This document shows positions 9,390-13,079 of a stretch of 49,090 bases of DNA, one piece after another. The notes beneath the pieces were generated by a model. The model saw nothing but the letters and a program-made list of their open reading frames with translations. It had not been told where the DNA came from and made no database searches. Within the stretch, counting starts at the first letter, position 1. Every line of letters begins with the position of its first letter. This DNA comes from Anaerolinea thermophila (GTDB taxonomy: Bacteria; Chloroflexota; Anaerolineae; Anaerolineales; Anaerolineaceae). The DNA lies in the NCBI RefSeq assembly GCF_020723905.1, contig NZ_DYHZ01000011.1:1-49090 (forward strand), read 5' to 3'. A program made the translations under genes and the position numbers.

Positions 9390-9426
9390 AACTCCCGCAG
9401 TTCAAATCCCTGCGGGAGTTTTTTTT
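9390..9426. terminator. Bidirectional intrinsic terminator
   Basis: A perfect 11-base stem (AACTCCCGCAG at 9390-9400, CTGCGGGAGTT at 9410-9420) with a nine-base loop is flanked by an A-run upstream and a T-run downstream. It therefore terminates both the adaptor operon and the convergent glnS transcript. Confidence 0.92.
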
Positions 9427-11107
9427 ACTTCTTCAGCGACTGCTCGATCTTGCTCCAGGCGTCGCGCAGTTCCACGGTGAGGTTGAACACCGGCTTGCCG
9501 GGCGTGGAGTCGGGATCCACGCAGAAGTAGCCCTTGCGCTCAAACTGGTAGCGTGCGCCAACCGGCGCATTTGCCAGCGAAGGCTCAACCTTACAGCCGG
9601 TGATGATCTTCAGCGAGTCCGGGTTGAGGTAATCCAGGAAGGACTTGCCCTCTTCCACATCATCGGGAGTGGGATGGGTGAAGAGGCGGTCATACCAGCG
9701 CACCTCGGCATCCACCGCATGCGCCGCCGAGACCCAGTGAAGGGTACCCTGCACCTTGCGTCCATCGGGGGCGTAACCGCCGCGCGTGGCAGGGTCATAG
9801 GTGCAGTGCAGTTCTACCACATTTCCCTGTTCGTCTTTGACCACTTCCTCACACTTGATGAAGTAGCCGTAGCGCAGGCGCACCTCGCGCCCCGGCGCCA
9901 GACGGTAGTACTTGGGCGGTGGCACTTCGCGGAAATCCTCGCGCTCGATGTACAGTTCCCGTGAGAAGGGGATTTGCCGCGTGCCTGCCGAGGGATCTTC
10001 GGGATTGTTGACCGCTTCGAGGTACTCCACCTGCCCTTCGGGGTAGTTGGTGATAACCACCTTAAGCGGATCCAGCACACCCATTACCCGCAGGGCGGTC
10101 TTATTGAGGTTCTCACGCACGCAGTGTTCCAGAAGCGCCACATCCACCAGCGATTCGTTCTTGGACACGCCAATGCGGTCAATGAAATCCCGGATGGCTT
10201 CGGGCGGATAGCCGCGCCGCCGCATGCCGCGCAGGGTTGGCATGCGCGGATCGTCCCAGCCGCGCACCACGCCTTTTTCCACCATCTGTTTCAGGTAGCG
10301 CTTGCTCAAAATGGTGTAAGAGAGATTCAGGCGGGCAAACTCGATCTGTCGGGGGTGGAAAATGCCCAGCGCGTCGAGGAACCAGTCGTACAGCGGGCGG
10401 TGATCCTCGTAGGCAAGATCACACAGGGAATGGGTAATGCCCTCAATCGAGTCGCTCTGCCCGTGGGCAAAGTCGTACATGGGGTAAATGTGCCACCGGT
10501 CGCCAGTGCGGTGATGCGGGGTGTGCAGGATGCGGTACATCACCGGGTCGCGCAGGTTAATATTGCCCGACGCCATGTCAATCTTGGCGCGCAGGGTGCG
10601 CGAGCCCTCGGGGAATTCACCGTCGCGCATGCGGCGGAAGAGATCCAGGTTTTCCTCAACTGAGCGGTTGCGGTAAGGGCTTTCGCGCCCCGGCTCGGTG
10701 AGCGTACCGCGGTATTCGCGGATCTCTTCCGGGCTGAGGTCGTCCACGTACGCCAGCCCTTTCTTGATCAGTTCAACCGCCCACTCGTACAGTTGCTCAA
10801 AGTAATCTGAGGCATAGTACTCGCGGTCGCCCCAGTCAAAGCCGAGCCAGCGGATATCTTCTTTAATGGCTTCGACGTACTCGGTATCTTCCTTGGTGGG
10901 GTTGGTGTCGTCAAAGCGCAGGTTGCACTCACCGCCAAAGGCTTCTGCCATGCCGAAGTCAATGCAGATGGCTTTGGCGTGCCCGATGTGCAGGTAGCCA
11001 TTGGGTTCCGGGGGGAAGCGGGTGCGCACGTAGGTAAAGCGCCCGCTGCGTAAATCTTCTTCAATGGCTTCTTTGATAAAATGGCTGGGTGCCGGACTTT
11101 CTGTCAT
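9425..11107 (-). CDS. glnS: Glutaminyl-tRNA synthetase
   Basis: The class Ib aminoacyl-tRNA synthetase has 560 residues, the normal bacterial length. The Rossmann fold starts with [19 protein letters not shown] (HIGH at 40-43), followed by the GlnRS-type [11 protein letters not shown]. The KMSKS-equivalent is ILSKRYL near residue 265. The C-terminal part (~340-560) is the two-barrel anticodon-binding domain. GlnRS rather than GluRS is indicated by [15 protein letters not shown] and DDTNP. Its presence implies direct charging of tRNA-Gln. It lies 22 bases downstream of trpS on the same strand and is probably cotranscribed with trpS and the SelW-like gene. Confidence 0.96.
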
Positions 11108-11129: not shown

Positions 11130-12116
11130 TTATGGCAGTCCCACTGCCTCGCGCACCTTCACCATAGTCTGTTCAGCGATGACGCGGGCGCGGCTGGCGC
11201 CATCGTGCAGGATGTCCCAGATTTCATCGGGGTTTTGTGCCAGCGCGGCGCGTTTCTCGCGGAAGGGCGCCAGGGCAGTGTTGAGGTTGGCGGCAAAGCG
11301 TTTCTTGCAATCCACACAGCCAATGCCCGCGCGGCGGCACTCGGTGTTGATCATCTCCACCTCTTCCGGGCTGGAGAAGACCCTGTGCATGGAAAAGACG
11401 TTGCACACGTCGGGGTTGCCGGGGTCGGTGCGGCGCTGGCGAGCCGGGTCGGTCACCATGGTCATGACCACTTTGGTGGTCTCCTCGGGAGTGAGCGCCA
11501 GTTCGATGTGATTGTTGAGGCTCTTGCTCATCTTCTGCTGTCCATCGGTGCCCAGCACCTTGGGCACTTCGGTCAGTTTGATTTCCGGCTCTTTCAGCAC
11601 AGTGGTGTTGTAGCGGTAATGGAAGGAACGCACCGTCTCGCGGGCAAACTCAATGTGTGAAGCCTGGTCAATACCCACCGGCACGATGTCCGTCTCGTAC
11701 AGGACGATATCAGCGGTCATCAGCACCGGGTAAGATACCAGCCCCAGGTTGACATTATTGGGTTGCATGCGCACCTTCTCTTTGAAGGTGGGCAGATCGG
11801 TGAGTTTGCCCAGCGGAGAGACCATGGAGAGAATGAGGCTTAACTCAGTCACCTGCGGGACATGAGACTGGATGAAGACGATGCTCTCGCGCGGATCAAT
11901 GCCCGCCGCCAGCCAGTCCAGCGCCATCTCAAAAGTGTTTTGCTTGAGATCGCGGGTGGTCTCAAGCGTGGTGAGGGCATGTAAATCCACAATGCAGTAA
12001 ATGCAGTCGTAATCCTTCTGGAGCGCCACATAATTTTTAATCGCTCCCAGATAGTTGCCCAGATGCTGGCGTCCGGTTGGGCGCGCGCCCGAGAAAACAC
12101 GTCCTTTTTTGCTCAT
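11130..12116 (-). CDS. trpS: Tryptophanyl-tRNA synthetase
   Basis: The class Ic synthetase has 328 residues. The nucleotide-binding start is [18 protein letters not shown] (HxGN form of HIGH), and the KMSKS loop is [20 protein letters not shown] near residue 195. The substrate-pocket segment [12 protein letters not shown] is typical of bacterial TrpRS. A Cys-bearing insertion ([18 protein letters not shown]) in the C-terminal half resembles the CxxC cluster of TrpRS types that bind iron-sulfur or metal. The start ATG overlaps the stop of the upstream SelW-like gene (ATGA), so the two are translationally coupled. Confidence 0.95.
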
Positions 12117-12367
12117 ATCTGTCCTTTCTCCAAGAAGGTTCGAACCGCGGCTGACACCTCGCCGGGTTCGGCATGGCGACCGGTGGCTTTTTTAGAGTAC
12201 AGGAGCGTCCCGTTTACCTCAACCTCGAAACGTCCGCCATCCGAGGGGATGAGCGTCAGCCGTTCAATTTCGGGTTCGTAGGTCTTCAACAATTCTGCTG
12301 CCAGACCGACAGCGCGATCGGTATAGCGTCAGACAGCGCAGTAGGTGATGGTAATGTTCAACAACAT
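12113..12367 (-). CDS. SelW-like (Rdx/SelT-W-H family) selenoprotein, TGA read as Sec13
   Basis: This 84-residue protein is missed by standard translation because codon 13 is TGA (12331-12329). With Sec (U) there, the start reads MLLNITITYCAVURYTDRAV, giving the redox motif C10-A-V-U13 at the position where family members have CxxC or CxxU. The rest is classic for the family: LTLIPSDGGRFEVEVNG, then LLYSKKATGRHAEPGEV. Fifteen bases after the TGA begins a SECIS-like hairpin (12297-12313) with the apical loop GGUCU. The stop overlaps the trpS start by four bases (ATGA). The thioredoxin-like family is proposed to act in thiol redox reactions. Intact codons on both sides of the TGA argue against a pseudogene. 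selA, selB, selC and selD would have to lie outside the window. Confidence 0.85.
12297..12313 (-). promoter_or_regulatory. Bacterial SECIS-like hairpin
   Basis: In the mRNA, GCUGUC pairs with GGCAGC (six pairs, one G-U) around the loop GGUCU. The stem begins 15 bases after the UGA, within the window required by SelB. The loop matches the GGUCU in the E. coli fdhF SECIS as I remember it. The hairpin lies inside the coding sequence, as bacterial SECIS elements do. Confidence 0.75.
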
Positions 12368-12396
12368 GATGAAACCTCAGAGTTCAGATGTCGGGC

Positions 12397-12408
12397 ATAT
12401 TATAATAT
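12397..12408. promoter_or_regulatory. Symmetric AT element with TATAAT on both strands
   Basis: The 12-base palindrome ATATTATAATAT lies between the divergent SelW-like gene and the sugar transferase gene. It offers a -10 TATAAT in each direction (minus 12404-12399, plus 12401-12406). I see no convincing -35 on either side, so the promoter call is weak. Confidence 0.35.
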
Positions 12409-12458
12409 AGAAAAAGGCGGAATCTGCCGCCCGGTTTGACGACAGGATTTCCCAACCC

Positions 12459-13079
12459 ATGCCGCTTTTTCCACAGGGAGTGCCTCTTTCCAAACGCCTC
12501 TTCGACCTGATTGTGGCGTCGCTGGCGCTGATTGTGCTTTCTCCGCTTCTGCTTCTCACCGCGCTGGCGGTGCGGCTGGGACTGGGCAAGCCCGTGCTGT
12601 TTCGCCAGCCGCGCCCGGGTTACAGAGGACGCATTTTCACCCTCTACAAGTTCCGCACCATGCGGGAAGCCCATGCGCCCGACGGCACCCCCCTGCCGGA
12701 TGAACACCGCCTGACGGCGTTAGGGCGCTTTCTGCGCGCGACCAGTCTGGATGAACTGCCCGAACTGATCAACGTTCTGCGCGGCGAGATGAGTCTGGTG
12801 GGACCGCGCCCCCTGCTGGTGAAATACCTGCCGCTGTACACGCCCGAACAGATGCGCCGCCATGACGTCCTGCCGGGCATCACCGGCTGGGCGCAGATCA
12901 ACGGACGCAACGCCCTCACCTGGCAGGAAAAATTCCGTCTGGATGTGTGGTATGTGGATCACTGGTCGCTGTGGCTGGACGTGAAGATTCTTTTGCTCAC
13001 AGTGTGGAAGGTCCTGCGCCGCGAGGGCATCAACCAGCCCGGTCAAGTCACTGCCAGCGAATTTGACGGCACCAATTAA
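12459..13079 (+). CDS. Polyprenyl-phosphate sugar-phosphate transferase (PglC/WcaJ-like)
   Basis: The 206-residue monotopic phosphoglycosyl transferase starts lipid-linked glycan assembly by moving a sugar-1-phosphate from a UDP-sugar to undecaprenyl phosphate. Residues ~12-35 form the re-entrant membrane helix ([20 protein letters not shown]). They are followed by the family blocks [34 protein letters not shown] and [13 protein letters not shown]; the DE pair in DELPEL is catalytic in this family. The length matches the short PglC-like class rather than the ~460-residue WcaJ class. It stands alone here; the other surface-polysaccharide genes of the window are at 32907-36573. Confidence 0.92.

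Follow-up and report, generated by a model that had tools for sequence, protein, structure and literature searches.

Judged from its sequence, the 49,090-nucleotide stretch of DNA analysed here (the window) almost certainly contains a genuine, functional selenoprotein gene, SelW-like and of the Rdx family, belonging to an Anaerolinea-type bacterium of the phylum Chloroflexota. The gene, termed selW here, runs from 12367 to 12113 on the minus strand and comprises 84 codons and a TGA stop when an internal, in-frame TGA is translated as selenocysteine (Sec). That internal TGA, at 12329-12331 (minus strand), would encode residue 13 of a readthrough product of the form MLLNITITYCAVURYTDRAVG...IPSDGGRFEVEVNGTLLYSKKATGRHAEPGEV...EKGQI. 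It closes a redox motif, C-A-V-U (residues 10-13; 12329-12340, minus strand), whose outer columns, 10 and 13, are invariant across the 18 rows of our alignment (U shown as C). The original prediction had described an 84-codon frame at 12113-12367 with CAV-TGA at the redox motif and a stop overlapping the start codon of trpS. Its coordinates are correct when read on the minus strand, where the frame and its CAV-TGA were found; a plus-strand translation of the same coordinates is not the protein and was rejected. The overlap was borne out as well, with the selW stop at 12113-12115 and the trpS ATG at 12114-12116. A candidate ribosome-binding site, GAGG, can be read at 12375-12378 on the minus strand, 7 nt 5′ of the selW ATG.

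Profile searches place the product in the family that had been predicted. The Pfam Rdx profile (PF10262) spans the TGA, matching residues 4-76 with an E value of 5e-22 (78.3 bits; cut-off 22.6), and TIGR02174 (CXXU_selWTH) also exceeds its cut-off of 34.2, scoring 56.9 bits (E 1.9e-15). Because of these two matches, the frame is beyond what chance would produce. The product scored 80.3 bits against the equivalog NF041051 (SelTWH_Campy), below its cut-off of 88. Seven PDB sequences matched, the best being 2fa8, a SelW-related protein of Agrobacterium (E 6.8e-13). No match to a sigma-70 promoter was found at 12100-12480. Upstream of selW, at 12415-12432 on the minus strand, lies a terminator-like hairpin with a T run (one found, 0.3 expected).

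The predicted structure is consistent with this assignment. An AlphaFold2 model, made from the 18-row alignment with Sec modelled as Cys, reached a pLDDT of 92.4 and a pTM of 0.81. It has a strand at residues 3-10, then a loop with C10 and U13 nearby, then a helix at residues 16-33, so that the CxxU motif (C10-A-V-U13) follows the first strand. When PDB entries were ranked by fold, ranks 1-21 were all chains of 2oka, 2fa8, 2obk, 3dex, 2p0g and 2ojl, six bacterial Rdx-family entries that also match the selW product by sequence. Mouse SelW and MIEN1 ranked 22 and 23, followed by thioredoxins at E >= 0.01. The six bacterial entries resemble the model closely (TM to query 0.82-0.90, identity 31-39%), and two of them, 2fa8 and 2p0g, carry Cys at the position of the UGA in the two alignments shown. 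Mouse selenoprotein W (2npb) shares the fold (TM to query 0.68) but is distant in sequence (22% identity). The product is thus predicted to have a SelW-type, thioredoxin-like fold. Mouse selenoprotein W also carries a CXXU motif. Eukaryotic SECIS elements are located in the 3′ UTR, whereas the hairpin described below lies within the coding sequence.

The in-frame TGA recurs in relatives. A selW match was found in 52 of the 147 genomes of the family, and all 52 loci were read. Codon 13 is TGA in 45 of these (Sec genes) and TGC in the remaining seven (Cys genes), and the frame past codon 13 is open to near its usual end in every one; it is conserved, not broken, after the TGA. Selection appears to act on this downstream part: over the 61 codons past the TGA, dS fell below 1.2 in 64 of 820 gene pairs, and among these dN/dS had a median of 0.30 and did not exceed 0.44. 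The pairs are non-independent and come from 41 Sec genes, with the divergent L059, L061, L062 and L063 left out. The Cys genes are confined to two genera, g29 and g36, and g29 also has one Sec gene. Genus g29 therefore mixes the two forms, with a Sec gene at L062 (genome G106) and Cys genes at L064, L065 and L068 (G105, G107 and G104), and it is a place to date a switch between Sec and Cys. Beyond the family, profile counts that take Sec and Cys forms together gave a selW match in 178 of the 396 genomes drawn from the class and in 137 of the 301 drawn from the phylum. Counting both forms, the SelW family is thus widespread across the phylum. A named scan took in the best 80 of 166 relatives, 66 of these 80 lying outside the family set, and found TGA at all 80 loci; since the scan was ranked by likeness to Sec-type sequences, this count is no measure of the Sec/Cys ratio.

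Bacterial selenoprotein genes are expected to carry a hairpin shortly past the UGA, and the window has one, a feature absent from the original prediction. A bacterial SECIS-type hairpin (bSECIS) is found at 12297-12313 on the minus strand, 21 nt past the UGA, with a 6-bp stem (GCUGUC/GGCAGC) and a 5-nt loop, GGUCU (12303-12307). The bSECIS model in the available parts of PMC13188914 has a loop of 3-9 nt, a stem of 4-16 bp, a spacing of 16-37 nt, a G among the first two loop positions and an energy of -7.5 kcal/mol or better. The window hairpin fits the geometry of this model with its 5-nt loop, 6 bp, GG then U, and 21 nt. Against the energy limit of -7.5 given in those parts of PMC13188914, the bare hairpin falls just short at -7.4 kcal/mol (z -3.36); when 6 nt are added at either end, it reaches -9.0 kcal/mol, but with a z-score of only -1.22. 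A 52-nt piece of the window RNA favours a competing structure, at -14.5 kcal/mol.

Comparison across the family shows that this hairpin is maintained in Sec genes. In the family it occupies bases 16-32 past the UGA, again as a 6-bp stem and 5-nt loop, and of the 45 Sec genes 33 form all six stem pairs, 11 form five and one forms four. The pair that links two third codon positions forms in 43 of the 45 genes against 29.2 expected from shuffling, and none of 20,000 shuffles was as good, in a test that takes no account of sequence relatedness. This pair is made in different ways (T-A in 19, C-G in 19, G-C in two, T-G in two, A-T in one) and fails in two. All 45 Sec genes have G at loop position 2, and 43 have U at position 3. 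The seven Cys genes all have A at position 2, and none of them retains all six pairs. The hairpin thus covaries at a synonymous pair of sites and has decayed in the genes with a Cys codon. We also searched for the best bare hairpin by the rules in the available parts of PMC13188914, with a self-chosen limit of -5 kcal/mol. Such a hairpin was found in 41 of the 45 Sec genes, compared with a mean of 15.5 and a maximum of 20 in 60 synonymous resamplings; one of the seven Cys genes passed as well.

Outside the family, the same stem is less regularly present. Among the 66 new loci of the named scan (best 80 of 166), five or six of the family's pairs form in 28, and the notion that a single six-pair SECIS serves all loci was rejected on this count. 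Pairing between the two third codon positions is seen in 42 of these 66 loci (best 80 of 166) against 37.7 expected from shuffling, with 21 of 20,000 shuffles as good. The rule-based search nevertheless found a hairpin in 61 of the 66 (best 80 of 166), compared with a mean of 25.7 and a maximum of 34 in 60 synonymous resamplings. In 34 of the 66 loci (best 80 of 166), GCCGTG replaces the 5′ arm of the family stem; the best hairpin of those 34 is approximately CCGGGC-CGUGA-GCCUGG, with its loop 17-18 nt past the UGA. Examples among loci L075-L154 are L077, L094, L115 and L138, while the hairpin of L143 is weaker than the -5 limit. From sequence, it appears that one orthologous gene carries its SECIS in either of two registers. 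Two apparent bSECIS registers in what looks like a single orthologue would amount to nature's own test of which hairpins SelB accepts.

The genome also encodes the apparatus needed to use such a signal. The assembly (3.29 Mb, 13 contigs, 99.96% complete; the window is contig C7) has a tRNA-Sec gene on contig C10 (68.7 bits), which ARAGORN calls as tRNA-SeC with anticodon TCA. It also has selB on C5 (339 bits; cut-off 242), selD on C5 (366 bits; cut-off 125) and selA on C6 (549 bits; cut-off 268). The complete Sec machinery (selA, selB, tRNA-Sec and selD) is thus present. Of the two findings named as refuting the original prediction, a complete genome devoid of Sec machinery and a broken frame past the TGA in related strains, neither was obtained. 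The original prediction had proposed that this organism decodes UGA as selenocysteine; the machinery, the conserved TGA/TGC codon, the open frame and the SECIS-type hairpin all support that proposal at the level of sequence. We envisage that ribosomes would initiate at 12367 and arrive at the UGA at 12329-12331, where SelB, on the hairpin at 12297-12313, would bring a Sec-tRNA that SelA had formed from selenophosphate supplied by SelD. Translation would then proceed to the second UGA, which would act as the stop and at which trpS starts in another frame. The product would be an 84-residue thioredoxin-like protein in which C10 and U13 could cycle between thiol-selenol and selenenylsulfide forms. 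Its role is probably that of a thiol-dependent reductant or redox adaptor, linked to glutathione or thioredoxin.

The gene that follows selW is trpS, encoding tryptophanyl-tRNA synthetase (11130-12116, minus strand; tRNA-synt_1b (W and Y), 3.1e-66), whose start overlaps the selW stop as ATGA. It would be translated from the overlapping ATG, and we infer that selW and trpS probably share one message. In the family, trpS lies downstream of selW in 50 of 52 genomes (43 of 45 with a Sec gene and all seven with a Cys gene); the two Sec genes after which no trpS was seen are L061 and L063. An overlap between selW and trpS occurs at 29 of the 45 Sec loci, by ATGA in 21, by one base in seven and by eight bases in one. 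At the named-scan loci, a pattern-based search identified trpS in 65 of 80 (best 80 of 166). Most relatives overlap or nearly touch, while a locus of the same genus as the window (L018, genome G004) has a 120-base gap between the selW stop and trpS. In the window, a glutaminyl/glutamyl-type tRNA synthetase gene (9425-11107, minus strand) comes after trpS, which puts two synthetase genes in a row behind selW.

As selW overlaps trpS, readthrough might couple selenium supply to the synthesis of tryptophanyl-tRNA synthetase. It is conceivable that the gene encodes a Sec protein and also regulates, with selenium setting the passage of codon 13 and hence translation from the overlapping trpS start. 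The close linkage to trpS in the family (50 of 52) and the frequent overlap (29 of 45 Sec genes) would suit such a regulator. However, trpS also follows all seven Cys genes, and overlapping genes are commonplace in operons. We consider a regulatory role of this kind improbable.

A second alternative keeps the frame open and dispenses with selenium. UGA might be read as some other residue, through general reassignment or near-cognate readthrough, and a reassigned UGA would likewise leave the frame open. Yet UGA terminates 28 of the 45 Sec genes, that of the window included. Moreover, where the UGA is missing, in seven relatives of the family, a Cys codon stands in its place and the G of the hairpin loop has been lost as well, and genes for tRNA-Sec, SelA, SelB and SelD are present. 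Insertion of a residue other than Sec is thus very improbable. Least credible of all, to the point of being negligible, is that the TGA is an ordinary stop in a pseudogene or a sequencing error: many pseudogenes do look like a lone in-frame stop, but the codon recurs in 45 of the 52 genes read in the family and at all 80 loci of the named scan (best 80 of 166), dN/dS is low past it, the hairpin covaries and the Sec machinery is present. For codon 13 of selW, both a pseudogene and a general reassignment of UGA were rejected on this evidence, and decoding as Sec is the reading we retain.

SelW-like CXXU selenoproteins and the mechanism of Sec insertion are already known in bacteria, and selW adds one more example. 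According to the available portions of PMC1088965, 48 SelW-like CXXU genes are present in the Sargasso Sea set; the function of SelW is described there as unclear, its CXXU motif as suggestive of redox activity, and an interaction with glutathione as found. In the accessible part of PMC1794560, SelW-like proteins (10 genes) are among 25 bacterial selenoprotein families. As far as these portions of the two papers extend, the proteins they describe share with the product of selW a family profile, the CXXU motif and a SECIS-type hairpin past the UGA. In contrast, a host in the Anaerolineaceae or Chloroflexota and a position directly 5′ of trpS are not described for SelW-like selenoproteins in those same portions. 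A search of titles and abstracts, beyond whose scope most subscription journals lay, returned no publication that treats selW of Chloroflexota or Anaerolineae, and the words Chloroflex, SelW and Anaerolin are absent from the available parts of PMC12013277, PMC13188914 and PMC5029168. Our analysis adds the linkage of selW and trpS in the Anaerolineaceae and other Chloroflexota, an apparent second register of the SECIS among relatives, and a protein that may be a client of the Sec machinery.

The question of clients arises from earlier work. In the available part of PMC4959059, Anaerolinea thermophila is given a Sec elongation factor and no dehydrogenase annotated as containing Sec. We searched the present genome for three client families (formate dehydrogenase alpha, FlpD and HesB-type proteins). 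The formate dehydrogenase alpha matches had no in-frame stop, and neither FlpD (PF02662) nor HesB-type proteins (PF01521) gave a match in this genome. The selD gene of the same genome (L046; contig C5, 63188-64123, minus strand) itself contains an in-frame TGA, with a readthrough of ...LSSCAGUASK... and a CAG-U motif. Its UGA is followed on the 3′ side by a bSECIS-like hairpin (6-bp GGCGCA-CGUGU-UGCGCC), the loop of which starts 32 nt past the UGA as counted by eye. SelW and SelD are therefore plausible clients of the Anaerolinea Sec machinery, and selW provides a candidate client for an apparatus that had seemed unemployed. In the family, selB exceeds its cut-off in 40 of the 45 genomes with a Sec-type SelW compared with 69 of the 102 other genomes (Fisher p 0.007), so selB and Sec-SelW co-occur only moderately. 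The five of the 45 without a selB match over the cut-off are 77-92% complete. A fuller scheme would hold that Anaerolinea-type Chloroflexota keep the Sec machinery mainly for SelW and SelD, that readthrough couples selenium to TrpS synthesis and that the bSECIS may stand in either register; we regard this scheme as a whole as improbable.

The position of selD varies among these genomes. It lies within 8 kb (<=8 kb) of selW on one contig in 13 of the 45 family genomes with Sec-SelW (for example G131:C70, G137:C16, G123:C29 and G068:C1), while in the genome of the window selW is on C7 and selD on C5. In 17 family genomes (G084, G117, G119, G109 and G023 among them), the SelD match sits within a far longer, TGA-free frame of 735-796 codons. 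This is perhaps a fusion protein, and several of these genomes also have a TGA-containing selD.
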